Below, piece after piece: positions 26,405 to 63,210 of a DNA stretch of 64,000 nucleotides (position 1 is its first letter; each line of letters begins with the position of its first letter). The notes below the pieces were generated by a model. It saw nothing but the letters and a program-made list of their open reading frames with translations. It had not been told where the DNA came from and made no database searches. Made by a program: the position numbers and the translations under genes. The DNA is from Bryoerythrophyllum caledonicum (lineage: Eukaryota > Streptophyta > Bryopsida > Pottiales > Pottiaceae): positions 41,949,158-42,013,157 of the forward strand of contig OZ020514.1 of NCBI GenBank assembly GCA_963971425.1, in the 5' to 3' direction.

Positions 26405-26800
26405 AAATGTCATAGATTAAATATAGAGTAGCCGTTGTTAACAACCGCGTGTAATCTACGGAGAATTGGTACAACTATTCTATTAATAGTGATTTACAGA
26501 TGCCCGCTACCCGTCCTAGGTAGTGTCTCCCAAATGTTAGATAATGGACTATAGTCTTCCTAGGATTCTTGAATGGATCTAGATGTGCAACAAATAATGT
26601 GCTAAAAAGTGTCATACGATAAATATAGGGTGGCTGTTGTTAACAACCGCTTGTAATCTACGGAGAATTGGTACAACTATTCTAATATAAGTGCTTTACA
26701 GATGCCCACTACCCATCTTGTATGGTGTCTCCCGAATGTTAGATAATGGACCATAGCCTTCCTGGGATACTTGAATGGATCTAGATCTGCAATAGCGACA
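26405..26800. repeat. 202-bp direct duplication
   Basis: 26409-26590 and 26611-26792 align at a constant 202-bp offset (GTCATA-GATAAATATAG, AACAACCGC-TGTAATCTACGG, GAATGGATCTAGAT). The right copy overlaps the end of the coding exon at 26674-27106; the left is a decayed duplicate of that exon end. Confidence 0.65.
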
Positions 26801-27106
26801 CATTTAGGCCACAAATAATGCCTTGTTCTAGCATTAAATGAGGCCTTTCTAATAATGTGGAGAAACCTAACATAGCGAGGCCTTCGAGTCTGCTTGCTGG
26901 CATAGAGAAAAAGAATATCTGATAAGATGTCTGGAGGCAATAGCACTTGGGCCGCCTCCATGAGCCTATCTGGACGCATAGGAAACCAAATCCTGACATT
27001 GAAATACCGCAGTAGTACTCGAATAACATCTTCCGTGTCATCAAAGGAAGGCAGCTGCGCGGAGCGGGACTTAGCTGAGTCAAGGACCTCGTCGAAGTAG
27101 AGAGGA
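26674..27106 (-). pseudogene. 3'-terminal exon of the outer element gene (unknown domain)
   Basis: Leftward. An acceptor (TGTCTGCAG, ending 27107) is followed by one frame of about 140 codons without stops, from Y-F-D-E-V-L-D near 27098 to a TAG near 26676. The protein is basic and helical-looking and contains R-I-W-F-P-M-R-P-D and Y-L-W-P-K. No family recognised. It follows the FCP1-like segment on the same strand and is probably the last exon of the same gene. The exon itself is clean, unlike its upstream neighbours. Confidence 0.45.
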
Positions 27107-27479
27107 CTGCAGACAAATATGATTATGGCCTACGAATAGCAAGGCACTACCATTCAATTTGAAATTTAACATGGGAATGACGAGAAAATAAGGTGTGAGG
27201 TTGCCAAGTGAAAGAAAATCGATCGGAGATCTCCGGGTGCCCCTCCCAGTCCGACGTTCCGCAATCGAAAAGGTCAGCAAAATAATCAATAGTGTTCAAG
27301 GATATTGAAGGGTGAAGTTTAGGGGCAAGACACTAACAATAACAAATCAAAGGAAAGACCTTATCAAATTACGTAATTCACAACATTTGTCTTCAAAATT
27401 GAAAGGTCAATATCCCGAAGACATTCTTGAGTTGACATTTACAAAGCATAGTGTTAAATATCTAGTTTATCTCAATGTT

Positions 27480-28163
27480 CTAAGGCGCCGAAATTATGCC
27501 CGCCACCACGGCTAGAGCTGTAGAGGAAGATTTGTCTACTGCTCCGTAGACATGCTTCAGGGGATTTCGTCTAACATAGTCGCGAACATCCTCGTTTGAC
27601 GCTAGCAATTCGGCGGGCCATGGGCAAAATGTGGAGACCAAGAAGTTGTCATTCAAAGGCGCACTCCAAGATGGGGGATGAACTGCACTAAAAGGGTCGT
27701 TAAGGACGTTCTTTCGTGGGGTATCGTCCACAAGCAAGACATCCTTGGGAGATCTAGGCCACGCCTTGGTGTTATAAACTATCAAGTCCTTCAGAAATAT
27801 TGGCTTCTTCGCTTGGGATGGGATCACAAACGATGACTTATAGCAATCAGCCTGCGTCAGGACTGTGACGCCTTTCGAAATGGCAGCACCTTTCTTGCGC
27901 AACTCTTTGATAATTTATACAACTTTCTTTTCCAACACACTACTCCAGAATGAGATAGTAGCCTTCTCTCCGACGAAGTAAAGAAATCTGTACAACTAGG
28001 CCTTACTTTGACGTCCCTCGGTTGTCCCTATTTAACTTCCCCCCTTTGCACAAGAACTCCATTTAAGTCAAACACGACATGATAAATCGGTTGTATTGTT
28101 ACTTGATCCTCGTTTCTAGGCTTCCAGACGATCCTAATAAGCATCTTTGGACCTGAACCCAAA
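27480..28163 (-). pseudogene. FCP1-like (HAD superfamily) phosphatase domain, broken
   Basis: Leftward. A possible acceptor (TTCAG near 28164) precedes M-L-I-R-I-V-W-K at 28144, then V-V-F-D-L-N-G-V-L (28050-28078), the usual position of the HAD nucleophile motif, then R-P-S-C-T-D-F-F, a frameshift near 27975, A-T-I-S-F-W-S-S, a TAA, and finally a clean frame with V-L-L-V-D-D-T-P (the HAD motif IV acidic pair) and H-P-P-S-W. Order and spacing match the FCP1/NIF-like phosphatase fold. The second motif-I acid is Asn instead of Asp, as in the copy at 49.7 kb. At least two stops and one frameshift make it a pseudogene. It is probably the C-terminal part of the gene whose upstream exons lie at 52.2-56.2 kb, on the other side of the inner element. 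Confidence 0.6.
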
Positions 28164-28279
28164 ATACAAGTACCTAGGCTGAGATGAGGAACTTGTATAG
28201 CTTAGAAGAACTACAAATATACATATAGAAGTGTTCCGCACTGACAATCCTGAAATGCTCGATGGAAGATTAAGCACTG

Positions 28280-28312
28280 TATAAACACCATATTTGTTAT
28301 ATTGGGAGATTT
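28280..28312 (+). repeat. Inner element TIR, left
   Basis: TATAAACACCATATTTG followed by TTATATTGGGAGATTT; 30 of 33 bases match the reverse complement of 51946-51978, and 23 bases match 13715-13737 exactly. Confidence 0.6.
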
Positions 28313-28794
28313 AGAGACTCACAAATTAACAGATGTAGATCATAAGAGCTAAAGTGCACATCTAAACTCTACAATATGGAGGGATACGAGTTTCCATTAA
28401 ATTGGGAGGTAATGTTCACTACAAAAATCCCTAGAAAAATAAGTACTACGGATAATATTACATTACGAGTCTAACTATAATATTGAAAAGAAGAACACAT
28501 TAGTTGATACTTCTTTTATACCACATGTGTTTATTGAATATGAATAGCTAAATATTCACACTCGATCCTACTAACCTGGATTAACCCCATGCTCCAAGTT
28601 AGCTAAAAGTGAGTTGAATGACGGACAAATATCTACTTGTAAGAGAATTAGCGAAACACATACTGATGAGCCTTTTTTTAATTTAAAAGAATTTCAGTTT
28701 ACCGTGTAGAATATACATTGGCTAAAAAAATATGTAACGAGTTTCAAATGATGGTGTTTAGAAGTGGAAAAAAAGTTGCACACACAACAGCTCT
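28313..28794. other. Inner element subterminal region, no gene
   Basis: AT-rich, no ORF. It contains one weak half of the AGCT-type palindrome near 28345. Confidence 0.3.
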
Positions 28795-28960
28795 CTTCGA
28801 AGTAAAGTGTCCCCATCACTTAGATGTGCAATATACTCAAAACAACAATTCCACACACTTTAGCTCTACTTGACCTAAAGTGCGCACCATTACTAAGTGC
28901 AGTGAACTAAACAATAAGATTTGCTCACACTTTAGCTCCACTAGAGCTAAAGTGCGAACC
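28795..28960. repeat. AGCTCGAG-type palindrome array, left cluster
   Basis: Three units of about 65-70 bp: CACTTTAGCTC-ACT-GAGCTAAAGTG-type palindromes followed by 'cgcaccatcactaagtgcagtgaact'. Same unit as at 34795-35010. It lies just downstream of the leftward DUF7869-like gene. Confidence 0.7.
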
Positions 28961-29266
28961 AACATTTACTTTCTATCATTTACCATGAAGGCAATTAGTG
29001 GTGTTACTGGTTTCAAGATTTGAAGCAATTTACCACGTTGTTATTTTAAAAAGAAAATAAACATACTGCAAATTATCATCCATACGCAAAAACAATGGAG
29101 AGAATATTTCATAGCAATCATTGGCATCACATATAGTCATACAGAGAGTAATCAAATACAAATATTATCTATAATCTCAGCACCAATGGATCTAACCATA
29201 CTACATGAAGTATAACCCATCAGAATCCAAAATCTAGGAAAAGGAAAGTCCATTGATCTAAGTCTA

Positions 29267-32110
29267 TTACGATTCGGACCTGGCAAGTGCTTTCAAGGAG
29301 GCCTTGATAATCGCTACTTGCCCCTTCAGAATTTTTGGAGTTGAATCTTGCACATGACCTCCATCCCTCTTTGAAGACCTAGGTTTCCATGTTGTCAAGA
29401 TTGAATCGGTACTCTCCCACGTTATGGCTATCCCCTTTTCAATTGTCCAGCGAAGGTTGCAATCTATATCCCAATCTTTATAGAGCTTCAGTACATCTTG
29501 ATCGCACGATACAGGGCGGAAGAATTGGATACGGACAGTGTTTGGCATATCCGGGTTGGAGTTAGGATCTAAAATTGCTTGAGCAATCCAAAATGGGCGC
29601 TCGTCTCCATCACAAGGCCGCAATGCAACAAAATAACCAGAAAAAAGATCACGACCAACTCTAAAAGAAGGAGGTGGACGATCGCGCCTCTGGCCAACAA
29701 AATGCTCATCTTCACGGTACTCCTCGCGAACCTCACCCTCCACTGAGAACTCATCTTCAATGGCATGGGCAATTCGCGTCGTTGGCCAAAATCCGTCTTC
29801 CATTGATATCGACGTATCCATTGGAAGTGTCAAAGCATCTCTAACATCGCGCCAATAGTACGATAGCGGCTCAAAACGCGAACGGGCTTCAACAGACTCC
29901 CTCGATGATTGCTCCCAGTGATCGATGAATCCTGAAAGTCCCTTCACCACCTCATGGAGATGCCGCATCGTAAAAGGCTTCAATGCATCAAGTTCTATGA
30001 AAGTCCATAAAGACCTTCCTTCAGAATCCTCCTTCCACAATTTGATGCCACTACCTTCTCCTCCCTTAGGAAGCCAATCCTCATCATGACAAAGGATTTT
30101 ATACTTCATTACCGGACAACCACTTGAGTCCACATAAAACTTGAACTGATGAGCCTTTGTATGACCGTGCAAAGCTTCATCACCGTCCGCAATCATATCC
30201 CCAATGAACTTCTTAAAGTCAGGAACCTCTTGGATGAGATGCGGGATTGTGGGAACACTCTCATTTCTCATGAACGACCTCATGAGCAAAGGAATGGTTG
30301 GAAAACTCTCCTTCCTCAGTGTCATACTCCAACGTCCAAATAATGCATCTATATCATCATGTGTATGACCAACTAGCATAAAATTGACATAAACCTCATG
30401 AAAGATGTGTTTGGCAACAAGGAGAGACCAAAAGCAGAAAACAAATCTATTTTAGATATCACCAACAACATTTTCCATTTGCACGTTCAATATTGGTGGC
30501 AAAGGTCTCCCAGGAACTGGGATATCTCGTATCTGCCCTAATGGATCCAAACACATCTCTGCACCCCGTAACACCACCGTATACAATGGATGAGAGCAAG
30601 ATTTCGGAAAGAGTTGCCGGGATGATGACTTCGGAGGCGCGTCCAGGTCACGCAATAGTTTTGCGAAGGACCCGACCGTGTAATTGGCATCATGGGAGTA
30701 TAAATCAAGGCCGTAATGGGCGTAACGTTGGTCCACATGTCCATGGGCAAGCATGCCTGTGATTTCAAGAGGCAACTTCATAAGCCCATCTAAGTGTTTT
30801 GTTTTATGTGAAAAAACCAGGGAGGCGGTCTTTGAGTGATCCATCTTATCATGCATGATGGTTAGAACCTCCTGGGGCAATGACTTTGATCGAAATCGGT
30901 TCATGTAGTACAAGTCTCGATGTGCAAAAGCAGAATCGATGTGAGCTTGCATCTTCTTTTGCCATAGCAGTGATGCTTGTGTCCCAGGTTGAGTAAGCTT
31001 CTTCTGATCCTGGTATTTGTCACACGTAGAACAACGGGCAAAGTTGTCTCCACCTTTCTTGGCATAGTACTCAGGGAAGCTCACTCGCCGAATCTTACTC
31101 AAACTTGAGGTTGAGATTGGCGGCAATCCACAATCAGCGAGATAATCATCAAGAAGCGGTATCTGATCCTTCCACTTAAAACTTGCTGGTAAGACCTTTG
31201 CCACAGCCTTCTGGCCAGATGGAAGAACACGAGACTTGTGAGGCATGTGGTCCGCATGTCTATCGAAGATGGCTCCAAGAGCGACAATAGCCACAACCGT
31301 ATGACCTCTAAGCTTACGCAAACCGGTATTGCCATGGTGTTGAGCCGCATGACCAGCCGCAACGTCCTTTGCATTCCGATAGAAAGTACTCAAACTTACA
31401 CCCATGATTTTCATCCAGGCATGGGCACAAATGTCGACACCCTCTAGAGTCACAACCTTCCTACCCGTAGAGTTTCTATGAAACTGTCGATGAATGTCGA
31501 GTTTGATATGATTTCTGAACTGCACGATGGTCTCATTGTACAAGCGCGTCCGGAGGGCTTTTATTTTATCTCTAGGGTAGTGTTGAACACAGTTTTGAAT
31601 GCAACAACTATTGCTCACAACTGCGTTAATGGAATGAGGGGTCATGAGGAATTCAACATTCCTGGACACTGTTGGACGTGTATTCCTTCAGGAATTGTCG
31701 TACGAACGGGAGCTCCCACCTAGAGATCTATTACGCTCAACCAACCAAACATTGTAAACGTCCCTAAGGCAATGATGGAAGAGACTCACACCATTTAAGA
31801 AGACTTGTTGAATTGGCGAGGACTTATACGAGTACCTCCATTCATCAGGAGCTTCCTCCAGAACAAAAGTATTGGACACCTGTACTACAACATTTGAATC
31901 CCCAAGAGGACCAGAGGAACCTAGAACTGCACTGGACCGGACATTGCGAACCAACCCCTCCGCAACGCGAACACCCGAACCATTGTGAAGCGAAACAGTC
32001 ATCCCGACCCAGAGACGGCGAGGAATAACATCAAACTCAGGAAGGTCTGGATTCACGGGAGCATCAACATGAACATCGACGTCCTCCGAAGACGACATCC
32101 TGCATTCCAA
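29267..32110 (-). pseudogene. DUF7869-like transposase-like gene, copy 1
   Basis: A single leftward frame of 948 codons, interrupted only by a TGA at 31690-31688 and a TAA at 30454-30452. N-terminal part unknown; then C-S-T-C-D (zinc-binding-like CxxC, near 31025), I-M-H-D-K-M-D (near 30850), Q-M-E-N (near 30475) and V-G-H-T-H-D-D-I-D (near 30360). These acidic positions fit an RNase H-like DDE fold, and their order matches what I recall of DUF7869 proteins. Copy 2 at 61.4 kb has D where this copy has E (Q-M-E-N), so a catalytic acid is probably lost as well. Two clean stops without frameshifts suggest fairly recent death. Palindrome arrays flank it on both sides. Whether it moves the inner element is inference. 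Confidence 0.65.
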
Positions 32111-32194
32111 TAAGATAAGTATTAGATAATCCTTCCAATAAGTATGGGAGAATAACTTGTAGGAATGGACATCAATGAAGAAGCATATGAAGTG

Positions 32195-32745
32195 GGTATT
32201 TTAGCTTGAATCGAGGTAAGTTCAGGCGTTTGAAAATAACTTGCATTTAACTGAATCAGTATTGTAGAACAAGAAAATTTAGCTCGATTCGAGGTAAACA
32301 CATATGGTATTATATAACAAGAATGTAATTTTGTGGGACCAGATTTAATGCAAAAATGAAATAATCACACCCTTGATATTGATATTTTAGCCCGACTCGT
32401 CCTGAAATGTTGACTATTAGACAGTATGACAAATTAGCTCAACTCGAGGTAAACTGACGTGGTAAATAAGTTTCGACAGTTTAGCTCGACTCGAGCTAAA
32501 TTGTCGTAAAAATATGATATGACGGTTTAGCTCGAGACGAGCTAAACTGTCGTTTACAATACGGTACGACAGTTTACCTCGAGTCGAGCTAAACTGTCTT
32601 ACCGTTTTTCCAACGACAGTTTACGTCGAGTCGAGCTAAACTGTCGTTATTAAGTTAGGCTGACAGTTTAGCTCGACTCCAGCTAAATTGTCGTTAGTGT
32701 TATGGAATGACAACTTAGCTCGATTCGAGCTACAATGTCCTTCCG
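32195..32745. repeat. AGCTCGAGTCGAGCT palindrome array, main cluster
   Basis: About ten copies of a palindrome centred on AGCTCGAGTCGAGCT and extended outward by TTTA...TAAA and ACAGT...ACTGT, at 37-60 bp spacing (near 32279, 32430, 32487, 32524, 32569, 32618, 32660, 32706). The best copies are close to perfect 29-bp palindromes. The array sits directly upstream of the DUF7869-like start at about 32100, between the two divergent genes of the element. Confidence 0.8.
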
Positions 32746-33350
32746 TGATTCTCGGCGTCATTTTCAGGCTTCATACAGACATACTCTTCAGCCAATGGAT
32801 CTAGCTTTCTGTATACTAGAGCCCAAATCTTTGCATTAGTCATCGAGATAGTCGCAGTGACGCTTCAAAATCACAGTAGCTACAGGAAGTAGAGCAATAA
32901 GCATCACTCTCACATCCTAAATGCTAGAGTGCAAGGAGAATGCAAAAAGTATACATTGTGTACTTTAAAGGGTAGACAATCGGTGCGTGGCCGCCTCGCG
33001 CAAGCACCCTGCCCAACCGTGCGCAACCAATAGATGTTGAACTCCTCAACCTCCCACAATTGTACCACCTCCAAGCCTCCCACTCACCAGCCTTGCACAT
33101 CAACCAAACTGAGAATGAAAAAATGAGAAAACTGGCCGAGGTTCGGCGAGGTCACTCACGGTAACACGATCGCTTCCATTCCGGGCTACGACTTTAGAAT
33201 TGGCGGGAAGAAACTTTTCCACAGCCCCATAAAAAGTGCAAATTTTAAATCTCGGCGGGAAACTGAATCTGTTATTTCCCGATCGACTAAAATAAGGTAG
33301 AGTACAAACCTCGAATATACTCGCACATGCGAGTAATATACGTATAACTA
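32746..33350. other. Intergenic region, no gene seen
   Basis: Moderate GC; no ORF over 60 codons that looks real. It could contain the remains of the 5' part of the rightward gene, but nothing recognisable survives. Confidence 0.3.
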
Positions 33351-33445
33351 TGGGATTCAGGGTTAGGATAACGCGCAGGGTTTAGGGTTAGGATTAGGGT
33401 TAGGGTTTGGAATTTAGGGTTTAGGATTTAGGGTCCTTGGTTTAA
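33350..33445. repeat. Interstitial telomere-like repeats (TTTAGGG-type)
   Basis: Degenerate run of TTTAGGG, TTAGGG and TTAGGA units, for example GGGTTTAGGGTTAGG. The plant telomere repeat is TTTAGGG; this is too short and mixed to be a telomere. Confidence 0.65.
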
Positions 33446-34794
33446 ATATTATCCTTGTGATGATATTTCATTTCAATTTACTAATACTTTGAATATTCCG
33501 GATGTTGACAATTCAACTTAGGTATAGGGAAATGTAGAGAAGATATTGAGATGAATAGAAAGAATTTGTATTACAATCCAAATAGGACTTATCCATAAAG
33601 TTGAAAGCAAAGACCTTAACGAACGAGTCACATTAAAGAAAACAAAAAACATATTGTATGTGCACGTGTATTTTGAGCAAAAAAGTATGTATTCAAAAAT
33701 GCTTTGGACATAATTTCTTTGGGGTTTTTAAAATGTGCATAATGTTACTATTTTGTAATCAATTTAGAATGTTTATTCTTTTGCAAGAATCCCAAGTGTC
33801 TCCATGGTCTGGATTTGGAATCGAAATTGGTTACTATCCACTAAGTACTCAAAGACCGAAAATGTGCGCAAACTAATAGTTGGATTAAAATATCTTATTC
33901 TTTAGTTCAAATTGTATTATCATGAGTTTAGGGTGTGACAATCTAACATGACATTAAAGATGGAGAAATTCTTGACCATACACAATTTATTTCATGTTTT
34001 GACGTGAAATTTAAGACTTTGTCATTTGTGAAACATAGAGAGTGGAACAATATTAAAAGATTTAAACAAGAAATGGAATGACCTCCTCATGAGAAAAAAA
34101 GGATAATCAAAATATTAAATACAACTAATACAAAGTGTAGCACTTAGTGCATCAAGCATAATTTAATGATCATAATGTAAGTAATTTTAAATTTTATACA
34201 TGCAAAAAATAATAAATAGTTTATGAGCACGTTCCAGTGGTCGCAAGTTATATTTCAAATTCTCAAAATTTTGTAAAAGGATGATAGAAGTTATGAGGCA
34301 TATTTCTAAATAATTTATTTTCTCATTGAACGTCTTCAATAAAAGTTAGGCTAGCCAGAAGAGGAACTTCTTGATTGCCGGCACGTCGAGCAACTTAAAA
34401 AACCTTTTGCTATGACACACTATGGAATGTGATATTTTAAATACATAGAAGTAATATTAGAACGTTTGATATTGTGGAAAAACATGTTATTTTTCTAGTG
34501 AAAAATAAGATTATATCCTAATTCATACATTTTCACACATTGTCAAATATTATGGATTTATGGTACGAGAAATACTTAGATTTCATATCCATTGAAGACT
34601 AGGAGATCGTCATATTTTTTTGCTTTTTAATATTACTATTGGAGGTTTAGGTCTACATAATTTGAAAATCCTTTTAAAATTCAAAAGATTTTTATTTCAC
34701 CTTGTGAAATACTGAACCATATAGAGAAGTACGGAGTTCAAAATGATTGTTTGAAGGAATTGAAATACACATTGCACATACATCAGCTTGGTTT
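33446..34794. other. AT-rich region, no gene seen
   Basis: Short ORFs only (such as 33658-33876), without recognisable motifs. Confidence 0.3.
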
Positions 34795-35010
34795 GTAGCA
34801 GAGGTGTGCCCCATTACTACGTGCAATGAACTAAAAGGAGTGTGTGCACACACTTTAGCTCGAGTGCCTCATCACTAGGTGCAGTGAACTAAAAAGAAAA
34901 TATGCACAGTTTAGCTCAACTAGAGCTAAATTGTGCACCATCACTAAATGGAGTGGATTAGAAAGCAAAATTGCACTATGTAGCTCCAGTACACAGAAGA
35001 TGGCTTCTAG
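34795..35010. repeat. AGCTCGAG-type palindrome array, second cluster
   Basis: Three units (TTTAGCTC-A-T-GAGCTAAA-type, with 'gcaccatcactaagtgcagtgaact' spacers), homologous to 28795-28960. Confidence 0.65.
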
Positions 35011-35462
35011 TGATTTGACACTAAATAGGAAACCATACACTAATTGTAAAATTTACAATAAGTGTGGTGACAAAACTATATTACACTAAATGTCAACTAC
35101 TACTGTAAATGTCAATCCTAGTAAATAGTGGAACATAAAGTTTTTTTCTTGTGGACAGTTACTGTATGAAACCTCAATAATGATTTGGTTACATCTTGAG
35201 CATTCAAGTCAAGAAGGGTTGAGTGCATGTAGAAAAACAAGAGTTTGCAAGAAAGAGCTTGGGAATAATAGGACGTAGGTATGAAGCAAAAGGAAAATCT
35301 CAAAAATTGGACAAAGTAAAATATACGTATGAAGGAAAAATGAGATTTCAAGTAGAAGATTGGAAAAATAAGAACATTCTTTCGGGAACGAAAGTGAGAA
35401 AAGAAAGGAATATTGGAGAAGGGAAAATTTTAAAAATATAGAAATACAAAAAAAAAACTCAT

Positions 35463-35830
35463 TCGATATCCATCACATATGCATTCAATGTGCATTACAT
35501 ATTATGTAAATATTCATTAAATACTCATTGAATATGCGAATACACATTGAATTTACATTTGAAATTTATTAACTATTCATTAACTATTCATTAACAATAC
35601 ATTAAATAATCCTTAAATATACAAATATACAAATATTAATAAAACTGTCATAAAATATACTTTTGAAACTCTAAAGAATCATTATAAAATATTTAAATAT
35701 TCTTTAACTGTTCATAAAAATTATAGATATACAAATAGACATTAAATATTCTATAAAAACTCATTACGTAGTCAATAGTTATTGGCTTAAGATATGATTA
35801 CACATTAAATATTCATTAAATAGTCCTAAA
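35463..35830. repeat. AT-rich short-period repeat (cattaaatattcatt)
   Basis: Many degenerate copies of CATTAAATATTCATTAA-type words over about 370 bp; no coding potential. Confidence 0.6.
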
Positions 35831-35997
35831 TGATGTAAAAGAAATGCAAGACAAAAGAATGAGAATAGTTGTGAATCTGTATCTATAAAAGAATTTAGGA
35901 TGAAATGAGCGCGTAGATGAAAAACACATCCATGGATGAATGCGTAGATGAAAAAGCTTTTGGATGAAAAGCTAAAAGTTAGGGTTCTGTATTAAAG

Positions 35998-36115
35998 GAT
36001 GGGACGAGGACGGGGACGGGGACAAGGACGGGGACGGGGACGGGGACAAGGACGGGGACAAGGACGGGGACAAAGACGGGGACGGGGACGGGGGACAAGG
36101 GGACAAGGATGGAGG
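35998..36115 (+). repeat. (GGGGAC)n microsatellite
   Basis: About 17 units of GGGGAC with GGACAA interruptions. The G-runs could form G-quadruplexes on the plus strand. It lies about 190 bp upstream of the first recognisable exon of the rightward gene. Confidence 0.8.
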
Positions 36116-36296
36116 GACGATGGATTGGAGGGAAAGGGCTAGGGGACGGGGAGGTGGGGAATCAATACAAAAAAATGTTGTGTCCGGAGGATATGGGTAG
36201 CACTCTAGTAAGACGATAAGAATTTGAGGTTGAAGATGAGACAAGAAGAATGAATGCATGGCAACCGGTTGGCAGAAGATTTTGAGCTAAAACTAG

Positions 36297-37008
36297 CATA
36301 CGGAGAGAGATCTCGAGCAAATTCTTCAGAGTCTTCATCGATGTGCGGTCGCAGTTTGTTCCACCGTAGGGGCCTTGCACTTTCGTGCATACAAGGCGGC
36401 AACGAATTTGCTCGGGACGTGGCCTTCGGATTCGTGGCGCAACCTGGGATGCAACGTGAAGCTCGGCATCATCGACTTCCTTAACATCCCTGGTTTCTAT
36501 GGGAAGGCAACGTCGCCGTTGGAGAGGCCCTTCTTCGACGAGTTCATGACCATGTTCGCATCGAAAGGGCAGGCCGCAGCCTCCCCTCACCGATCTTCCA
36601 GCCTGGCTCTTCAATTGCGGCGACGAGCAGTCACACCTTCAAGTGACAGCGTTTGCTGAGGGCCCGTTGTTGTGCCATGCATACGATGTGCTGCACTCAA
36701 AGTATCTTCCCTCCGAGAAGGAGCGCTTGGGAGGATTTGCGCCGAAGAGCAACAACGCTCTCGACCCTGTCCGCCTCCTCTTTCTCTTCAAGGAAGAGCT
36801 CACGCAGATCCCTGCCGTGAAGAAGACCTATGCAGCTTCGGAGCATGTATTGCACACCAAGCTTCGCAAGTACAACGAGCTGGCGTACTCAATGAACATG
36901 AACGAGCTCAGGATGGAGTTCTTCATCAAGGTCCTGGAACTATTCTGCAAGAAGGGGGAGGCAGTTGTCCAACTGTTTGGCGGGACGAAACTGCTCATTG
37001 CGAGTGTG
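36297..37008 (+). pseudogene. Inner element gene: methylase-like exon
   Basis: Rightward, after a possible acceptor (AACTAG, ending 36296). One frame runs to about 36575, then a one-base shift, then a clean frame to the donor GTAAGT at 37009. The end of the exon (E-L-F-C-K-K-G-E-A-V-V-Q-L-F-G-G-T-K-L-L-I-A) has the layout of the SAM-binding motif I of N4/N6 DNA methylases (usually D-P-F-x-G-S-G-T), but with the key residues changed, so catalysis is doubtful. The outer gene has an exon of the same layout ending at 53377, also in phase 0. The methylase assignment is inference from pattern only. Confidence 0.45.
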
Positions 37009-37293
37009 GTAAGTTTCCCTGCAGTTTAGCTCGAGTCGAGCTAAACTATTGATACCTCTCTCTGTCTGTGCATGGATTGTTTCTGAGAGGTCGTCTCTTA
37101 CGCTATTGTACTCGACACTTTAGCTCGAGTCGAGCTAAAATGTCAGCTTATACTGATATAATTTTCTAGCCGTATTTAATCGCGTCGTATCCTTTCATGT
37201 TTAAATAGCTGAGTTTAAATAGCAGTGTTACTTTGCGTTCACTTTAGCTCGATTCGACCTAAAGTGTAACTCGTTCAATCCATTGGTGTGTAG
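37009..37293 (+). other. Intron carrying three element-specific palindromes
   Basis: GT-AG, phase 0 on both sides. It contains AGCTCGAGTCGAGCT-type palindromes near 37027 and 37120 and a variant (AGCTCGATTCGACCT) near 37246, spaced about 90-125 bp. Confidence 0.65.
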
Positions 37294-47556: not shown

Positions 47557-47557
47557 A

Positions 47558-52842: not shown

Positions 52843-53054
52843 CTGCGTCACATTGATGAAGTCAGTGTGTAAAAAATGAAGAAGGAAACGGCATCATACA
52901 CCCAGAGATCTCCGGTTCAACGTGGTTCATGTGTGCCGGGCAAACTAAGTTCGAACATTGCAATGAATATGATGAGTCCTGAAGTATCGAGGGCGTCCGG
53001 AGCGTATGAATAGCCAGAGATCTCCGTCTCATGAAGTTGCCGTAGGCGTCATAC
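52843..53054 (-). other. Outer gene intron with two GGAGATCTC-type palindromes
   Basis: Donor GTATGA (53054), acceptor ...GCAG (52843), phase 0. It contains CCAGAGATCTCCGG near 52902 and CCAGAGATCTCCG near 53014. Confidence 0.6.
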
Positions 53055-53270
53055 CTCCTCAATGAAGTTCATCCTCGACATTGCCCGTGTTTGAACCCTA
53101 GCGCCTGGGGTCGACTCAGTGATGTCAGTCTCCTCTGCATCCTCGGCAACGCCATCCTTAGCGTCGAGTAAGATATTCAAGTGGTACTTAAATATCTCTT
53201 ATGCGCAAGATTCGGCCTTTACTTTGGCATCTACGCTGTTTACAATCTCCAGGACCCGCGCGTCATGAGT
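53055..53270 (-). pseudogene. Outer element gene: exon matching the retrotransposon-cut inner exon
   Basis: 72 codons, phase 0 at both splice sites. Starts T-H-D-A-R-V-L-E-I-V and has one TAA at 53190-53210 where the frame continues E-I-F-K-Y-H-L-N. The sequence resembles the inner exon starting at 37294 (D-D-A-M-E-V-A, then S-Y-H-V-N), so the two genes are homologous and share splice sites. Confidence 0.55.
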
Positions 53271-53376
53271 CTGCAAAGAAGAAACTTCAGTAATGGCGTC
53301 ATCTGAAACATATAATTGTATATGGACAGGAAAATCTCTATGACGAAGGATTGCTTGGGAATGATGTCTTGCTTAC

Positions 53377-54733
53377 CAAGCCAAGATATGTTAATCTAAT
53401 AACATTTACGATCACCATACCCTCTCTGATGAACCCCGTGAAGAGCAAATCAAGGACCGAGATCCTCAGCTGCGGAACACCGGGCCTTTGCCAGCGCTTG
53501 ATGGATTCGGCATGATCAGCGGCTGAAATGAAGGCCAACATTTTCTTGGGATGACCTTTGAAGAGCCTTTTGAATGACTAAGCAGATGCCCGCTCGCATC
53601 ATATTCATGTAGGAATACACAATATACAATCTCCCCGACACCGATATCTGGGGTCGGAAACCCATCAGCTGGGTGGAGGAAGTAGTAGACCACATGCGCT
53701 ACCCACAATTTCACCTCGCCCCTGAACTCCCTCTGCCGAAGTATGAGTTGCCTCTTCAATTCCACAAATCTTGCTTCGTCGGTGATAAGAACCGACGGTG
53801 ATCTGACACTCGTCCGCCCGTCTTTTGTATCCACTTCGAGATGGTTGAAAATTTTCTTGAACTTGAAGAGATCGAGGACCTGAGGTCCTAAGCACGACAA
53901 CTCTCGTCTTTCACGCGATAGAGGAAATAAAAGTAAAAGTGAGGGTCTCCGGCGTTACGCCACTCCTAAATGATAGGTATAATAAGTACATGGGCGACCT
54001 TGCCACCATTGTCTGGCAGAATCCTGTAGGTGTATTTGGAGTCGAATAGGGACGTGTCATCGTTGGGGGTGGCTTTGGCAGCTACATCTAGAATGTGATG
54101 ATTCCAAATAGACACAAGGACATCTGGGGTGGCGTCGGTCTCCTTGCTAATCGCCTTCAATCGGCCCTCAAGCCAAGCTTTATCCTTGGCTAAGTGATTT
54201 GCTACGTCCACCTTGGACTCAAGCTGGGCCCGTCCAATATTCTTCTCTTCCGCAAATTCGTCCCATTGCTCCCTCTTGTATGGGACGAAGTCAACAGACT
54301 TTGAGGGAAGGGAGTGATTCTTGTATTTCAACATGAGTTCATTCTTCATTGTCCGGATTCTCTACTCCCTATTGGCAGCATTTTTGAGAGTCTCGGCCTA
54401 CCCTTTCATAGGAACTTGGTTCGCCGCTTTGGAGGTCTTCACTCAGACCTTCTTTGCGAGCACTAAGTCCGCCTGGTAGTTCAGGTCTTCAACGCGCATT
54501 TTGTATAGTGGCTTGAAGTCGTTCTGCACCAAAGGTTTCCGCTTCAGCTTAGCGGGGTCGCTCGTCTTCCCGTTCAAGTCTGATGGGAGTCCAACGACGA
54601 ACATCTTATCGATTCTGATCCACTTCTGGACCACCGCGTCATCCATCTCGAATTGAAGAGGGACCTTTGTGTCTTCGGGGTCCATTTTACCGAGGTGTGT
54701 GAAAATTGTTCGCACTACTTGCCGTTGAAACGC
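53377..54733 (-). pseudogene. Outer element gene: large central exon
   Basis: After a clean acceptor (ATTGCAG, 54734) a leftward frame runs A-F-Q-R-Q-V-V-R-T-I-F with premature stops at 54445 (TGA), 54400, 54364, 53968 and 53890 (TAG), then shifts frame near 53890 and again near 53540, and ends at donor GTAAGC (53376). The last part, L-L-F-T-G-F-I-R-E-G-M-V-I-V-N-V, lines up with the methylase-like end of the inner exon at 37008, at the same splice phase. No intact catalytic motif is visible. Confidence 0.5.
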
Positions 54734-54842
54734 CTGCAATTAGAAATAACTCAGTGCTGGAGATCTCTTGTTGAATGATTTGGTTACTGTGAAGAAAGAG
54801 CACATCAATGGAATTTTGTAAAAGTTGAGAATGCAATCTTAC
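54734..54842 (-). other. Outer gene intron with a GGAGATCTC palindrome
   Basis: GT-AG, phase 0 on both sides (109 bp). It contains CTGGAGATCTCTTG near 54757. Confidence 0.6.
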
Positions 54843-56210
54843 TGAAAATGCCTGAGGTTGTGGACGACCATATAGTTCGGGGGTTGGTTTTCCGAACTCA
54901 AACCACTTCACTGTGCACGTTTGCACCTGCTCAGTGAAACTCTCCTCCTTCCGCAAACCCATCAGATCTTGGTTGAGAGCGCGCGAGAGTTGTAGCACCG
55001 TCATGTCTTTGGGGCCCGGTTTGGTCCAAACCGGGATGATTGAGAAGTGAGATCTCTTCGAGCGACCACGTAGATGGCAATTCGTGTGACAAAATTTTGT
55101 GCGCCTCCATAGTATACTGACCACCAATAATGTAGAAGTGCGTCGAGTCCCTTAGGCGGTCCTCCTTCGTCGGCTTGGTCTCAAAGAACTCCACCTTACT
55201 TCCTTTAGGTTTTTTCTTCAGCAGCAGGACTCGAATGTGATTCTCAGGTGCCGTTGCCTTCGAGGACGCGCAAATTGCGTTGATGATTCCTTCAAGCCGT
55301 TCTTTCTAGATGCCCCTGTATACTAATCCTCCAAGGGGGGCCCTGTGTAGGTTGTTGAAATGAACAAGCTTGAGGATATCCTTCTTTGTGACAGGATCTT
55401 CTATTGTCAACGGCTTATTCTTGTGTATGTAAACATTTTGAACGCGTGGTCAAGAACCTTGCCAATAGCTTCTACTTCAGTCCGCTTCATTTTGGTGAAG
55501 TCAGCCTGTGTGAAGTTCAGACACTTTTTGATTGTGAGGCGTGGCTCATCGGCCTTTGCTTTCTTTCCCTTCTCCGCCCGTAACAAGGAACCTGGGGTCG
55601 AAGTCTTTAAGGTGGTCTTGCGTTTTTTTGTTGGGGTCGATGCTAGTGTCAGAGACAGTATGGAAGTAGGGTCCGGAACGGGCTTTCGGGAACTTTCTTG
55701 TGCTTTTGCCATCCACTTCCACTACTCCATAATGTACTCTGGCATCCAAGTATCACCCGTAGGAGGGGGGAATAGAAAGTTCTCATTCTGGCAGGTCTCC
55801 ACCAACACTTCCAAAATCTTAGATGTGTCCAGGATCAAGCCGTATATGAGAGCATCGGTGGAAGAGTCCGTGTTGTCGTGGATGACAAGGAGACAGACCT
55901 CATCATCAAGACCTTACATCTCCAGAACCTGGAGACCAATGATGGGGTGTCCTCGTATACTAAGCCGAAGCTGAGGGACAAATTCTCAAGCTCCTTGAGA
56001 GGTTTTAATTAGCTTGATGCCCCACTCGGTCATGGTCCAACGACATCTGTATCCGTAGTCGACATTGTGTATCTCTCTGTAGACGAACTCAGGGAGCCAA
56101 AACTCCACAAACGCCCCAAGTTTCCCGGGACGACATTTTGTCGGAAGTGTGGTTGACCATGAATCTCTACAAGATGATTTTGAAACAACACACCAGTACT
56201 TAGCAATCAC
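54843..56210 (-). pseudogene. Outer element gene: N-terminal part with ParB-like motif
   Basis: Leftward. One frame runs from about 56210 to 55440 with stops TGA (55988), TAA (55916) and TAG (55724). It then shifts, and the next frame contains F-N-N-L-H-R-A-P-L-G-G, a TAG at 55308, and F-Y-I-I-G-G-Q-Y-T-M-E-A-H-K-I-L (near 55130). That motif fits the G-G/D-G-x-H/Q-x-x-x-A core of ParB/sulfiredoxin-like domains, which are often joined to DNA methylases in bacteria and phages. A further shift near 55050 leads to a clean frame ending at the donor at 54842. ParB similarity is inference from one motif. Confidence 0.45.
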
Positions 56211-56224
56211 TAAAAGTATCCGGT

Positions 56225-56875
56225 CATCTATGTAGTGTCCGGAGATCTCTGGCTATATTCCGAGAGATGGAATACATGGAACGAGCTTCCACTTCCATGA
56301 GACAGTGCCAACAGCAGGAGATCTTGGCCCTTTTTGTGAATCTTCAGAAACTTGTGCAGCTAATGTTCTCTAATTGATTGAAGTATCTTACTTGCGCTAT
56401 AGCCGGAGATCTCTGGTTTGGCAGCCAAGTTTTGACGTCGTCACTAGGCAGTATCGCAACTTACTCGAAACGTCTAGAGATCACCAGTTGTGAGTCGGAA
56501 TCAGAACAACAAGGAAGGGTCTTTTTGTTCCAGGCGATTGCGAAAGTATCCGGAGATCTCCGGTTGATTAGTGGAGCTCGAGAAAGTCCTCTTGAAAAGT
56601 ACCTCTTCTGATCAGACGGATCCATTTCTGACATCAACCGGAGATCTCCGGATAATGACCCCAAAATTGAGGTTCACGACTTTTCACATCTTCATCAGGG
56701 CCTATCTCCACTGCTTCGTAACGTCCGGAGATCTCCGGCTATGTGCCAAAATAACCATATCTTGAATGGGGACTTCATGATCCATGAGACCGCGAAATCA
56801 TTTGGAGATCTCCGGCTGATCACTGGAACTCCGGATCCAATTCGGGTAGCAACCGGAGATCTCCGGTTGCGGCGG
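56225..56875. repeat. CCGGAGATCTCCGG palindrome array
   Basis: Eight copies at 50-160 bp spacing (near 56238, 56401, 56472, 56549, 56635, 56723, 56803 and 56853), flanked by shared words such as 'ggctatgtgccaaaa' and 'catgatccatgagac'. The best copies are perfect AACCGGAGATCTCCGGTT. It lies upstream of the leftward outer gene, between it and the rightward DUF7869-like copy 2. Confidence 0.8.
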
Positions 56876-58270
56876 GAGTGGCATTATATTGCAACAATCG
56901 CATAAGACCATCAAGCGTATATTCACAACCATTCACAGAAAACTCCGATATATGACCCAAGAAAAAGCCGGAATGGAATGACTCATCATGGATTACTCAA
57001 CTGATGTAGTCAGTAGAAGTCAATCATCGAAGGCCTCAACATCAAGTTCTCTATTACAAAATTCGGAAAGAATCATCATACCATCGAGCAAAAATTCATT
57101 TCCGTCTTCAGTATACTTGGACAAATGATTTAATGAAACGCCAAAATGTGACAATTCTACATGGATTACTCTTTTCGCATTCAAATTAGACTCGACTTGA
57201 AGGACTTAGTATGGAGAAATTCATTCAAACGTTCAGGGAAAACCAAAATCAAACGCCTGTACATGGATAGATATATAATAATGTTTACGGGACAACTGAA
57301 AACCAATCAACTATACACAAACACACTTTTGAGTTCTAGTACGCTATTTATGAGGTTTCTCATATTCATGCAAGTGTTTGACATTGTCATACACCCGGTC
57401 GGTTACAAAAGAACCAATTCTAAACTCACAAATCAAGAAACCCCACACGGCTGCACTAAATGAGCATAAACAGTTCAAAATTGACGACGTACCGGTTATC
57501 CTGCCACAAAGTCCTACTGGATGTTCCTGCCGAAGTAGCCATTTTCCCACCGCCTCCAGCAACTGTTGTGGAACAACGCCCAAGCGGCTCTGCAGTACAT
57601 CAAAATACCACAACTTTGCACTACAATTTCTACAATTACTCAGACACCCTAGAATTTGAGGTCCAATTCTAGTTGACAAGAATTTCTCGATAGGAACATA
57701 ACATAACACAACACAACATTAAATGCTCTTATACAGCCCTTCTGAACTGAATATAGACAACACCAAAACCCTATATCCTCATACCCTACAAATCCGATCA
57801 ATCGACTAACAACATCATTACTATTTGAGTCTATCGAACCCGAATAGAGCCCACCAAACCCTACACCTTCTCCCGTGATGTTTCCATTAAGCACTCCGGA
57901 GCAAATGCGAAGTCCGATGATAGTAAACTCTACAATTTTTCTTATCATTGACGTTACTTACCTCCTCACTTGCCGAATCGCCGCACCCCTCCATCGTGTC
58001 CGTTTGTGCCGATGCCACCCTCAACCGCAGCGTCGTTCCCTCTCCTCTGGTGAACCAACCGCGCTCTTCCAAATTCTTCCTAATTCAAACGCTCGCTTTC
58101 AGTGGTGCACTCCGACATTCAAACGCTCTCTAGCAAACACCCCGACCGCTCCACTCACGACTACCGCTACCGCTTCTTTGAAATGTCTCTTAACTCACCA
58201 CAACAATCTCTCGACGGTATGCTCAATGCCGACACTTAAATCAACCCTCACCGCTCACAGCGATAGCCTC
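56876..58270. other. Intergenic region, no gene supported
   Basis: Overlapping short ORFs on both strands (57161-58357) without recognisable domains. Confidence 0.3.
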
Positions 58271-59075
58271 TCACTTGAAGATTCCCTCTCACTTGTTTTT
58301 TTTTATTTTTGTTTTACTCTCCCCTCCTTCTCCATCTCCATCTCTTTTTTATTTTGATTTTAATTTTTTTTAGATTGCCCCTGATTTCAATAATTACACA
58401 TTTTAAAAATAATTAACTACTCTAAAAAAAAATCCCACTCTCCCTCTCTTCTTTACTCTTCCTTACTCTCCCTCTTCCTTACTCTCCCTCTCTTCCTTAC
58501 TCTCCCTCTCCATCTCTTTTTTAATTTTGATATAATTTTTTTCAGATTGCCCCTGATTATATATTCTAGAAATATAAATTACTCTAAAATAAATCCCTTA
58601 CTCTCCCTCTCTCTTACTCTCCCTCCCTTACTCTCCCTCCCTTTCTCTCCCTCTCACTTGTTTTTATTTTATTTTTGTTTTAGTCTCCCCTCCTTCTCCA
58701 TCTCCATCTCTTTTTTAATTTTGATTTAAAAAATTTAGATTGCCCCTAATTTCAATAATTACACATTCTAAAAATAATCAACTTCTCTAAAAACAAATCC
58801 CGCACTCTCCTTCCCTTACTCTCCTCTCTTCCCTACTCTCCCTCCCTTACTATCCTCTCTTCCATACTCTCTCTTTCTTATTCTCCCTCCCTTGCTCTCC
58901 CTCTTATTTGTTTATATTTTATTTTTATTTTACTCTACCCTCCTCCTCTCAGTATATCTCATATTCAATTTTGATTTTAAAAATTCTAGATTGGTCCTGA
59001 TTTTAATAATAGTGGACTCTAAAAATAATCTACTCTTAAAATAAATCCCATACCCTCCTTCTCTTCTTTATTCTC
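58270..59075. repeat. CT-rich low-complexity, four imperfect units
   Basis: A block of 'ctccctctcttccttactctccctc' plus 'ttttaattttgatttaaaattt-agattgcccctgat' recurs near 58310, 58500, 58690 and 58930, about 190-240 bp apart. Confidence 0.65.
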
Positions 59076-59264
59076 CTTCTAACTAAATTGTAATGTATGA
59101 AGTTTTAAATAGTTATTGTTCAATTCTCGCTAAATTTCCTTACTCTTTATTGTACCAAGTTTATTGTTACAATTATAGTTATTGATAAATTTAAGGTTAT
59201 AGTTCATAGTTATCAAATAATTTTAATTTATAGATATATTAGTGATATAAGCCCTCGACCTTCA

Positions 59265-59405
59265 TCCATGAACCCTAAACCTTCAACTGTGAACCGTGAA
59301 CCCTAAACCGTGAATTAGAAACCCTAAACCGTAAGCCCTAAACCCTAAACCTAAAACCTGAACCGTGAACCGTGAACCGTGAACCCTAATATGTGAACCG
59401 GGAAT
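59265..59405. repeat. Degenerate telomere-like repeats (CCCTAAA/GAACCGTGAACC)
   Basis: Mixture of CCCTAAACC and GTGAACCGTGAACC units over about 140 bp. Confidence 0.6.
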
Positions 59406-59500
59406 CAGAGTTGTTCCGGCGTCAGTCCGTCCAGTAGTATTTGTCCGTCCCGCTGTCCGTCCAATGGAGATTATTGTCCGTTCGATAAGAGTCAACGCTG
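59405..59500. repeat. Dispersed GTCCGTCC repeat, copy 2
   Basis: Resembles 11775-11850 in order and sequence (TTGTTCCGGCGT, GTCCGTCC, CCAATGGAGATTATTGTCCG). Confidence 0.55.
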
Positions 59501-59539
59501 GTTTGACCATGACTAGAGGAAAATCAATTCACCTACTGC

Positions 59540-60000
59540 CACGAAGGCAAATATGTGGCTAACACGTCGACTACAAGATCGCGCGCGTACGAACAAGGGC
59601 TTGGCGCATACCTAGAAGGGTCGCGTGTGTATCTACCAGGGCCGCGAGCGTACGCCTTAAAATATATATATATATATATATATATTTATAAAAATATATA
59701 TATATATATATTTATAAAAATATATATATATATATTTTTATTTTATTTTTTTTGTTTTGTTGTATGCGCCTAGCCTTTGTTAGCATGCGCCCGACCTTTT
59801 GGATTGGGCGCATACGAACAAGGACTGGGCCTATACCATCAAGGACTGGGCGCATACCATCAAGGGTTGGGCACATACAAACAAAGGCTGCGCGCGCACA
59901 CTAAAATTTTTTTATTTTTTTTGGACGCGCCCAACATTTGTTAGCATGCACCCAACCTTTTGGATCGGGCGCATACGAACAAGGGCTAGGCGCGTCCGCC

Positions 60001-60043
<43 letters not shown>

Positions 60044-60670
60044 TGGCATGCGCGTCTATCTTTTGTTCGTACGCGCCCAATCCCTGATGGTACGCGCCCA
60101 GCCCTTGATGGTACGCGCCCAACCCTTGTTCGTATGCGACCAACCCTTGTACATACGCGCCCGATTCAAGAGGCCAGGCGCATGCTTACAAGGGCAAGAC
60201 GCATATAAATTTTTATTTTTTTAATTTTTTTTGCGTACGCCCGCGGCCCATTGAGGTACGCGCCCGACCCCTCTAAGGACGCGCCCATCCCCTTTAGGCA
60301 CGCGCCCGACCCTTTTAGAGACGCGCCCAACCTCTTTAAGTATGCGCCCAATCCTTTTTAGTACGCGCCCGACCCCTTTAGGTACATGCTGGACCCTTTA
60401 GATACACGCCTAATCTCTTTTTGGTACGCTCTTGATCCTTTCAAGTACGCGCGCGACCCAAAGGTTACGCGCCTGATGCTTTTTAGTATGCGCCTGACCC
60501 TTTTCAGTATGCGCCCAACTCCTTTAAATACTCGCCCGACCCCTTTGAGTACGCGCCCGACCTTCATTCAGCGAACACGCGCGCGCGACCTAATGGGTAT
60601 GCGCTCGAGATTATGGAGCAAGCAATTGAAGGATGATCGCACATTAAAGGGTCGAGCCCACAACTTATAG
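59540..60670. repeat. Inverted GC-rich minisatellite with (TA)n cores
   Basis: About 20-26 bp units built on GGGCGCATACGAACAAGG before 60000 and on the complementary TACGCGCCCGACCC-TTTAG after 60055, so the two halves are inverted. (TA)n tracts at 59660-59730 and 60003-60042 sit between them. About 20 units lie in 60055-60570. Translated ORFs (for example 59799-60224) only mirror the repeat. Confidence 0.8.
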
Positions 60671-61389
60671 GGTCGCGCGTGTGCGCTCTTGAGGGCCGCA
60701 CACTCTTTTAAATTTTGAAATTTAAATTTTTATAATATTTAAGCATAAGCGCCTCTACCGCACGCGCGATCGTCCACCGTACGCACGCAACCCTCGAACT
60801 TGCGAACTTGACTCTCATGTGTGCGATCCTTTTTGAATCGCTTGCCCCATAACCCCCCCTTCTTTCCCTCCTCCCTTTTCATTGACTTGCCTTCATTCCT
60901 TGTGTACCCGCCCGCTCTTCTTTTGTGGTGACCCACTTCTCTTGTATAGTCGCATGCCTCCTTGCACACTTATCAATCTCATTTGCATACACATCCATGC
61001 TCAACACGAATACAACTCATCCTCTACTATTTTGTGTTTTTTAAATTCCTTAATCTCGTTGAATTCTTGCTAGTGGCATAATGAAGATGTGTACAATGTA
61101 TAAGCCTCATTCCTCCTTGTGCCCACCTTTCCTAAGCTCTTGTCCACCCCTTGTTTATATAATGTTGATTTCTTTTCACCAATATCATCTATTGTCATTT
61201 CAAACTAAAGTCGTAGTTTCTAAACCGGAGATCTCCGGCTGGGTCTTCGCAGACATGCATGGACCACTAATTGATCACCTCTGTATTTCGCCCCTTCTGT
61301 TGGATCATTCTTCCGAAATACTCCTCTCACTAGGTTATTGTTTGATTTTGCAGACAAACGACTCCTATGGACTCCTGCTTGTAAGTTAG
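60671..61389. other. Region upstream of DUF7869-like copy 2
   Basis: No certain gene. One perfect CCGGAGATCTCCGG lies at 61225-61240. A poly-pyrimidine tract near 60850 and the ORF 61081-61389 (no known domain) are noted but not called. Confidence 0.35.
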
Positions 61390-61393
61390 TCCA

Positions 61394-63210
61394 CAGTTAG
61401 CTGGGTCAGAAAGGAATTCTTCGGAAATGTTGCTATCAAGCCATCTGGAAGCACCTTCAAAAAATGCAATACTTGCGATGAGTTCAATCAATTCTTAATG
61501 ACAACTTTAAAGGGAACGCCCGCGTACGAGATATTCTATAGCAACAGGCAGGCTCACTTGAATCAACAACAATCATGCCGGAAGCTTTACACGACATGGA
61601 GAGAGGAGTCGAAGGCGAAGCCGGTGACCTTTCTTTGTGTCATTCACGACAAGATGGACACTGCAAAGACGACTCTTCCACGCATGTGGAGGACGACTAA
61701 GGCAACATCTGGTCTCGGACAGCTTCCCATGAAAATCAGCAAAATGGTGGCACACGCTCATGTCGACAGAGCGTATACACACTATTCTCCTGCTTTATGG
61801 CCCGGAGATTCGAACGCCACCATCTCCTCTCTAGCAAAACTTTTTAGGTGGCTTGAGGGAGCACTATAACATGAGATGGGCGCGCTCTGCGAGCACCCAC
61901 CTCCAAACTCAATGTTCGCAGCGCTCATGAGGGGAAAGAGCAGGTGCCTCGACGCTTTAGAGCCCGTGGAGCCGAGTGCTTTTAAGGGACCGAAACCGTT
62001 GCCACCGAAATTGTTTCTGCAGCTCGACAACTCAGCAAAGGACAACAAGAACCAATACTTGATGGCATTCTTATCACTGCTAATTGCTCGAGGTGTTTTC
62101 AAGGAGATTCAAATAGGCTTCTTGGTGGTCGGACATATGCATGAAGATATTGATGCTTACTTTAGTTATCTATCAAAAGAACTCAAGAAAAACAGTACAT
62201 ATATTCTAGCGGATCTCATGAAGGCATTCATGAAGTCACAAAAACTTGCCTTCATGCCCGGAGTTATCTAAGAGGTGGCCGACTTTAAATCGTATGTCGA
62301 TGGCTACCTATGCAGCGGGGCGGCACGTCTGGTGGAAATAAGTGATATGCATCTTTTCAAGTTCTACGTTGACAATGACGGTGTTCCGGTCATGAAGTTC
62401 AAGAAATCTGCCGTTGATGCAAAGTGGCTACCGATGAACAGAGAGCCGATGAAACTCTGGAAGGTAGATGAATGCGGACGTCCCAAGCTCCCAACAGGAT
62501 CTCCCAAGCCTCCAACAGGATCTCCCAGGCCCATTCTTTTTAAGCTCATGTGGGATAATGAGTAGAAAAATCCGGTCGAAAACCAAAATGTTGCCAGAGA
62601 CAAGGCCAAAAAAGCGACGGAGAACAAATACTTCGTAAAGACGGGGCTCCGGAAGTACGTGGACTTCTCGGCGTCCGGAATGTCTAAGTGCGCAGGGTAT
62701 GCAGACTCCATCCGCCCATACCTGTTGTATTGAAAAGACGTCATCGACGAGCTTGACAAGCCTCTTTCTTAGGCGCCCTTCAAACTCGAAGAGGGATTTT
62801 GGCCTGCCCATAACTAGAGAGTCCCTCACGAGGGAGGTGGGAATCCCCTACCATTGGATGTCACTCCCAAAGATGAGGTTCTAGAGCCTTACTGCCAATG
62901 AAGCCCCAAAGTCCACTTTTTATCCCTAGCGTGACATTCGTCAGGGGTCCTGGATTTTGGTAAGACCTAGTGATCCGGACATCTATCCTATTTGGCAGGG
63001 TAGAGCACTTTCCGACGTCGTCAAGGATGAGGGTAGTACCAACCACGAAAAAAAATTTGTTAAGTATTGGGAGCGTTAATCAAGCAGGAGAATCTAAAGA
63101 GGAAGTATCACGGCTGCTTGGAAGCCACATGAGTTACCGACCAAGAGAAGCCTATATGGTATCATGTGAGTTCTACGTTGTTTGCGACTTGGTCAAGCAA
63201 AGTTAACCAA
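61394..63210 (+). pseudogene. DUF7869-like transposase-like gene, copy 2
   Basis: Rightward frame with C-N-T-C-D (CxxC, near 61471), V-I-H-D-K-M-D (near 61645), L-Q-L-D-N (near 62020), V-V-G-H-M-H-E-D-I-D (near 62130) and F-K-F-Y-V-D (near 62360). All have counterparts in copy 1 in the same order. It is broken by TAA (61870, 62269), TAG (62563), TGA (near 62730) and further TAG/TGA to 62950. A frameshift near 62960 leads to I-Y-P-I-W-Q-G-R-A-L-S-D, which matches copy 1 near its end. At 62269 the TAA stands where copy 1 has Gln. This copy keeps Asp in L-D-N but is more decayed overall. Divergent from the outer gene, as copy 1 is from the inner gene. Confidence 0.6.

Follow-up and report, generated by a model that had tools for sequence, protein, structure and literature searches.

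A nested DNA transposon with a divergent gene pair and element-specific palindromes in the moss Bryoerythrophyllum caledonicum

What kind of element places the same divergent pair of genes twice in one stretch of moss DNA, one pair inside the other and each accompanied by palindromes of its own? We addressed this question in 64,000 bp of the Bryoerythrophyllum caledonicum genome (437 Mb, 894 contigs), at positions 41949158-42013157 of contig C1 (hereafter the window, whose numbering is used below and is continued past its right edge). One gene of each pair encodes a protein of the unnamed Pfam family DUF7869 (PF25273), and the other (gene 2) a protein with an FCP1-like part. The locus is a nested DNA transposon, in which an inner element is lodged within an older relative (the outer element), between parts of the outer gene 2. 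The original prediction of nested large DNA transposons sharing one divergent gene pair was thus borne out, as the terminal inverted repeats (TIRs) and target-site duplication (TSD) of the inner element were found and both gene pairs could be read.

The elements at the locus

The inner transposon runs from TIR to TIR over 28284..51974. Its inverted termini (AACACCATATT..) comprise a left TIR at 28284..28312 (AACACCATATTTGTTATATTGGGAGATTT, plus strand) and a right TIR at 51946..51974 (AACACCATATTCGTTATATTGAGAAATTT on the minus strand), flanked by TATA duplications at 28280..28283 and 51975..51978. The DUF7869 gene is read leftward, as anticipated (29270..32098, minus strand; PF25273, 9.3e-26 on the core piece), and contains in-frame stops. 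Recoding of stop codons was considered and rejected, as these stops are TGA, TAA and TAA, and TAG stops occur in a long minus-strand frame that encodes a Gypsy polyprotein. The latter belongs to a Ty3/Gypsy long terminal repeat (LTR) retrotransposon of 10,890 bp (37416..48305, minus strand; LTRs identical at 741/748 bases; TSD GTCAA at 37411-37415 and 48306-48310) that lies within the inner gene 2. One continuous 15-kb gene, the multi-domain gene first proposed at 36.3-51.7 kb, had to be rejected, since it contains this insertion. Gene 2 of the inner copy now consists (all on the plus strand) of the 3' part of an exon read as possibly methylase-like (36366..37011; 84-87% identical to gene 2 of a complete copy elsewhere in the genome, termed D1), linker exons (48306..49595; 66-70% identical to D1 gene 2) and a last exon whose open frame holds an FCP1/NIF phosphatase-like domain (49714..50565; PF03031, 2e-16). 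The long matches of the inner element to D1 are 82-89% identical, and by comparison with it the inner copy has undergone an internal deletion of about 7 kb that took away the 5' exons of gene 2. Judged from its sequence, the inner copy is very probably non-functional, because the Gypsy element interrupts gene 2, the 5' part is lost and the second conserved Asp of the transposase reads Glu.

The outer element, at about 24.1-65.5 kb, proved wider than the original prediction had it: it occupies 24107..64000 and continues beyond the right edge of the window, as far as about 65497. Its candidate termini (AACTATTTCTGGACT) stand at 24107 and 65497, and we treat both ends as provisional since their flanking 4 bp do not match. 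The outer DUF7869 gene is degenerate and, as expected, rightward (61369..63016, plus strand; PF25273, 5.4e-32 on one piece), and the main segments of the inner and outer DUF7869 proteins are 37-44% identical. Outer gene 2, predicted in two leftward segments, was recovered unevenly. Its FCP1-like exon (27489..28081, minus strand) matches NIF at E 0.0045, below the family cut-off, and a Physcomitrium gene-2 protein at E 5e-10 (search of 4.2 kb), while the evidence that 52.2-56.2 kb represents its 5' part is thin, consisting of one 30-residue match (E 0.002, search of 9.3 kb) in a putative exon with an NGQH-like motif (FYIIGGQYTMEAHKIL; 55081..55182, minus strand). The direct match between inner and outer gene 2 is limited to a short FCP1 stretch. 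The outer gene-2 matches are collinear, one on each side of the inner element, which agrees with the predicted placement of the inner unit between exons of the outer gene, with the reservation that the upstream match is the thin one.

A third relative adjoins the outer element on the right. It starts at 65763 with the terminus AACACCATATTC and extends beyond 83000, with gene-2 matches running leftward from 72.5 to 67.5 kb and a rightward DUF7869 match beginning at 82.6 kb. The third and outer elements did not match each other in tblastx at E 0.001, and it is through relatives common to both that we regard them as kin. The left terminus of the third element seemingly splits a host repeat, of which an unsplit relative lies at about 24.0-24.1 kb. 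Further left (17776-20557), two open frames resemble fragments of a trihelix-type transcription factor gene of the host.

Copies in the genome and a predicted transposase

A first PF25273 survey of the same genome yielded 3611 candidates, and the best 150, which were scored, were all above the cut-off. Ten composite loci were fetched around well-kept DUF7869 copies. Both ends are visible in five of them (B1-B4 and composite C1), which hold elements of 13 kb with termini AACAC..GTGTT and TSDs AAAC, TGTA, TGAA, TATA and TAGG; both ends were not seen in A1-A4 and C2. In B2 the DUF7869 frame is open over 1077 aa and diverges from a second open frame, of 1371 aa; B1, B3, B4 and composite C1 match the two over their whole length at 94-100%. 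The search for an intact copy of the window's own family was answered by D1, which is complete (19,777 bp TIR to TIR, TSD CAAA) and carries both genes, the exon borders of its gene 2 being our predictions. Within D1 lies a 238-bp copy with like termini and the TSD TTAT. Taken together, perfect 4-bp TSDs flank all eight copies whose ends are clear (the inner element, B1-B4, composite C1, D1 and the 238-bp copy), the TIRs are about 30 bp long, and the termini begin with AAC.

Linkage of the two genes, which the original prediction expected genome-wide, was assessed on the best 105 of 3599 DUF7869 candidates and the best 137 of 1886 FCP1 candidates. At least 55 of the 105 scored DUF7869 matches have a scored FCP1 match within 50 kb, a count that should be a lower bound because both lists hold best scores only. 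Among these pairs 52 are divergent, and 32 of the 52 are spaced by 15.0-17.4 kb. With the matches placed at random, 3.6 linked pairs were obtained on average and 9 at most (200 trials, with the sizes of some contigs estimated and the small contigs, which account for 3/55 pairs, excluded). The misfits amount to three non-divergent pairs out of 55 and to 9/52 divergent distances above 26 kb. The expected linkage was thus found, in divergent orientation for the great majority.

Several peculiarities of these copies deserve mention. Upstream of the A-lineage DUF7869 gene, A1-A4 carry a head-to-tail array (unit about 1.9-2.0 kb, ~97-99.7% identical) that reaches about 10.9 kb within the A1 and A4 stretches examined and is unlike anything in the window elements. 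A run of exactly 200 N occurs in 7/10 composites, in the same approximate place in six B/C copies (between the two genes, where both could be read), and may mark assembly gaps. Contig C1, about 15% of the genome, holds 48/137 scored FCP1 matches, and 12/17 Ceratodon gene-2 matches bear U or V chromosome tags; contig C1 may be a sex chromosome, and its excess of matches could also stem from the query having been derived from it.

The identification of the DUF7869 protein as a DDD transposase of the RNase H fold, a prediction from alignment and structural modelling, is strongly supported. In an alignment that used 33 of the 120 listed matches, D280, D283 and D447 are present in 34/34 proteins and D405 in 33/34. 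The predicted structure follows the order beta-beta-beta-alpha-beta-alpha-beta-alpha with the conserved Asp residues at the expected places, and compared with known structures it matches retroviral integrase cores and Mos1 weakly; sequence searches of the PDB were uninformative. DUF7869 occurs in Physcomitrium, in bivalves and in a sea urchin, and the window-type proteins have their named relatives in Ceratodon purpureus and Physcomitrium patens. An oyster DUF7869 protein (P0166) also bears PF02338, which we take to be the OTU protease domain. The search for bacterial relatives returned a single match, on a contig of 4.3 kb from the metagenome bin of a cyanobacterium; the DUF7869 protein encoded there shares 75% identity with the moss-type P0003, and we set it aside as probable moss contamination. 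Viral origin was likewise rejected, as neither gene has a relative in viral contigs, a negative that is weak because the search patterns were moss-specific.

Gene 2 and the palindromes

Gene 2 carries the motif NGQHxVxA, kept in 21/21 moss homologues (12 of the 21 matches were used for the alignment). Relatives with the FCP1 domain exist in Ceratodon and Physcomitrium, and in the former the gene-2 homologue KC19_3G000200 and the DUF7869 gene KC19_3G000300 carry neighbouring tags. The NIF domain was matched in 4/6 gene-2 homologues (three over the cut-off) and was not seen in the B-lineage gene 2 or in P0140 and P0141. Active FCP1/SCP enzymes have the catalytic motif DxDx(T/V), which fits 0/21 homologues at motif I, whereas DxNG fits 9/21; the inner copy and D1 both read DLNG (DLN for DxD). 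DUF6551, a family that we take to be ParB-like, appears at E 0.06 in 1/6 gene-2 proteins, and WGPPD in D1 is a mere resemblance to the methyltransferase motif (D/N)PPY, with no match to a methyltransferase profile; a search of PHROGs, for which no cut-off exists, gave nothing telling. From the earlier label 'ParB/methylase/FCP1-like' we therefore keep the FCP1/NIF part, which exceeds the cut-off, and regard ParB-like and methylase-like as motif readings, for which no profile reached it.

Between gene 2 of the B lineage and the window, BLAST gave no match with an E value below 5. This B-lineage gene aligns to the window-type gene-2 profile over the NGQH region alone (DGQHIVAACK; hhalign E 4e-4, probability 35%). 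As a gene 2 with the DGQH motif also accompanies this distant DUF7869 lineage, gene 2 looks, on weak evidence, like an old partner of DUF7869, and 'cargo', as it had been called, is probably the wrong word.

The expected palindrome arrays between the divergent genes were present (gapped palindromes were included in the counts, and N removed). The inner palindrome (TTTAGCTC-N5-GAGCTAAA) and the outer one (CGGAGATCTCCG) occur in seven full and seven copies, respectively, each against <=1 in shuffles. One inner array lies upstream of the inner transposase gene (32426..32746) and the outer array between the outer genes (56239..56866). All 24 half-sites of the inner motif TTTAGCTCGASTCGAGCTAAA in an 84-kb stretch fall in the inner element. 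Matches to the outer motif CCGGAGATCTCCGG (<=2 mismatches) span 24318-65368, with 17/18 in outer DNA and one in the Gypsy element. The motif of the third element, TTATCCTCGNNNCGAGGATAA (<=4 mismatches), has 18 copies, all within that element, and is absent from the remaining 75.8 kb examined at the locus, so that each of the three elements has a palindrome different from the others. D1 carries the inner-family motif in 16 full copies (<=1 in 10 Markov shuffles), and none of its 47 half-sites is found within the 7,479 of 19,777 bp taken as coding. In general the palindromes sit between the divergent genes, in gene-2 introns and towards the element ends, mainly in non-coding DNA, and part of them form arrays with periods of about 46-53 bp. 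No strong palindrome array was found in B2, composite C1 or the examined part of A1.

A possible role for gene 2 and comparison with known systems

We reason, with slightly better than even confidence, that these are two-gene cut-and-paste transposons of mosses in which gene 2 would encode an accessory factor that acts on its own element. The DUF7869 protein would cut and paste the element, and the gene-2 product (or, with less likelihood, the transposase) would bind the palindrome private to that element. Such binding would sustain its transcription or protect it from silencing, in the manner of the VANC proteins of VANDAL transposons, and the FCP1-like domain, as a binding domain or an altered phosphatase, could act on transcription (e.g., on the tail of RNA polymerase II). 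More tentatively, we entertain the broader idea of a major and poorly described class of plant transposons, in which an NGQH/ParB-like, possibly methylase-like partner, often fused to an FCP1-like domain, would recognise a private palindrome and reset the chromatin or transcription of its own element, motif and protein co-evolving, independently of VANC and with other domains.

A number of observations weigh against the two-gene transposon with an accessory factor. The transposase model is moderate (pLDDT, the predicted local distance difference test, 66.8), its stretches 282-310, 317-326 and 438-482 score under 50 (the last holding the third catalytic Asp), and in Foldseek it had no match reaching E 0.001. 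A matching TSD is absent from the candidate termini of the outer element. One outer half-site lies inside the transposase gene (61802), and a two-mismatch match to the outer motif falls in an open frame of uncertain status (52495). The B lineage is without a strong palindrome array, so palindromes are not tied to every gene 2. The FCP1 domain of gene 2 is devoid of the second Asp of DxD, profile searches of gene 2 brought nothing except NIF over the cut-off, a PDB sequence search with it produced one chance match (E 0.82), and the structure predicted for gene 2 has too low a pLDDT (38.9) to be used.

The alternative that survives best, though we consider it doubtful, is that these are ordinary transposons of the Sola superfamily whose transposase binds the palindromes, with gene 2 as a passenger or in an unrelated role. 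Subterminal repeats are bound by the transposase in CACTA and hAT elements, and some inner palindromes do lie near the ends (28859-28944, 51314-51327); the DDD triad, the 4-bp TSDs and a report of Sola from Physcomitrella (PMC10741241) point the same way. Many palindrome copies, however, are located between the genes and in introns, distant from the ends, and gene 2 was retained in both lineages inspected for one. Less probable still is a reading of the palindromes as cruciform or hairpin elements (e.g., replication or RNA-processing signals), or as relics of small repeats multiplied within each element: they are strong inverted repeats and partly arrayed with the period noted above, but many are single dispersed copies, the sequence changes in each of the three elements, and none of the 47 half-sites of D1 falls in its coding part. 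We dismiss as extremely unlikely a host gene pair copied by segmental duplication or recombination, a view that four same-orientation FCP1 exons, 24.5-27.4 kb apart, on contig C1 (43974261-44051578; 43.97-44.05 Mb; possibly a tandem array of whole elements) would favour, and which is refuted for the resolved copies by their TSDs and opposed by the precise TIR ends in all eight clear-ended copies and by the nested insertion.

Returning to the two-gene transposon with an accessory factor, its parts can be set beside four known systems. With the FCP1/SCP (NIF) phosphatases it shares PF03031, above the cut-off in the inner exon of the window, and differs in having DxNG rather than DxDx(T/V) as motif I of gene 2. 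CACTA/EnSpm transposons also combine two genes with repeated short motifs; these have CACTA termini and a 3-bp TSD, and the moss elements have AAC termini and 4-bp TSDs, which places them outside that group.

The resemblance to Sola is closer. A review (PMC10741241) describes for Sola a DDD transposase, 4-bp TSDs, TIRs, some elements above 15 kb and presence in Physcomitrella, and PMC10294476 reports Sola in bivalves. The moss elements have 4-bp TSDs in all clear-ended copies (the provisional outer ends lacking a match), TIRs of about 30 bp, inside the Sola range of 11-1124 bp, and a transposase of predicted DDD type (D280/D283, D405 and D447, with the order of an RNase H core in a model of moderate quality), whose family, DUF7869, also occurs in bivalves. 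Because the DDD type, the 4-bp TSDs and the occurrence in Physcomitrium, in bivalves and in a sea urchin agree with that review, the transposase may belong to the known superfamily Sola, a likeness by description and not by sequence. An FCP1-like second gene and element-private palindromes go unmentioned for Sola in the available parts of both papers, and the open-licence PubMed Central papers searched mention neither DUF7869 nor a moss transposon with FCP1 and ParB parts; among them there was likewise none on a Ceratodon transposase. Hence, from the claim of an 'undescribed class of large DNA transposon', the large DNA transposon stands, while 'undescribed' is unproven, as the features agree with Sola. 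In any case, a Pfam family without a name is now linked to transposition by elements whose ends are exactly defined. These elements are numerous in the genome and listed in Ceratodon and Physcomitrium as hypothetical or uncharacterized proteins, and can therefore mislead gene annotation.

For gene 2 the nearest parallel is VANDAL/VANC. The likeness is again one of description. The VANDAL transposase and TSD length differ from those of the moss elements, and gene 2 is built with an NGQH part and an FCP1-like part. What the two have in common is a transposon-encoded partner protein and element-specific short motifs repeated in non-coding DNA; VANC targets, according to PMC5735166, are often tandem repeats, non-coding and variable between related transposons. 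Three different palindromes at one locus make recognition by gene 2 directly testable, and if gene 2 does read private palindromes, these mosses would harbour another self-addressed system of transposon activation, built from domains other than VANC.

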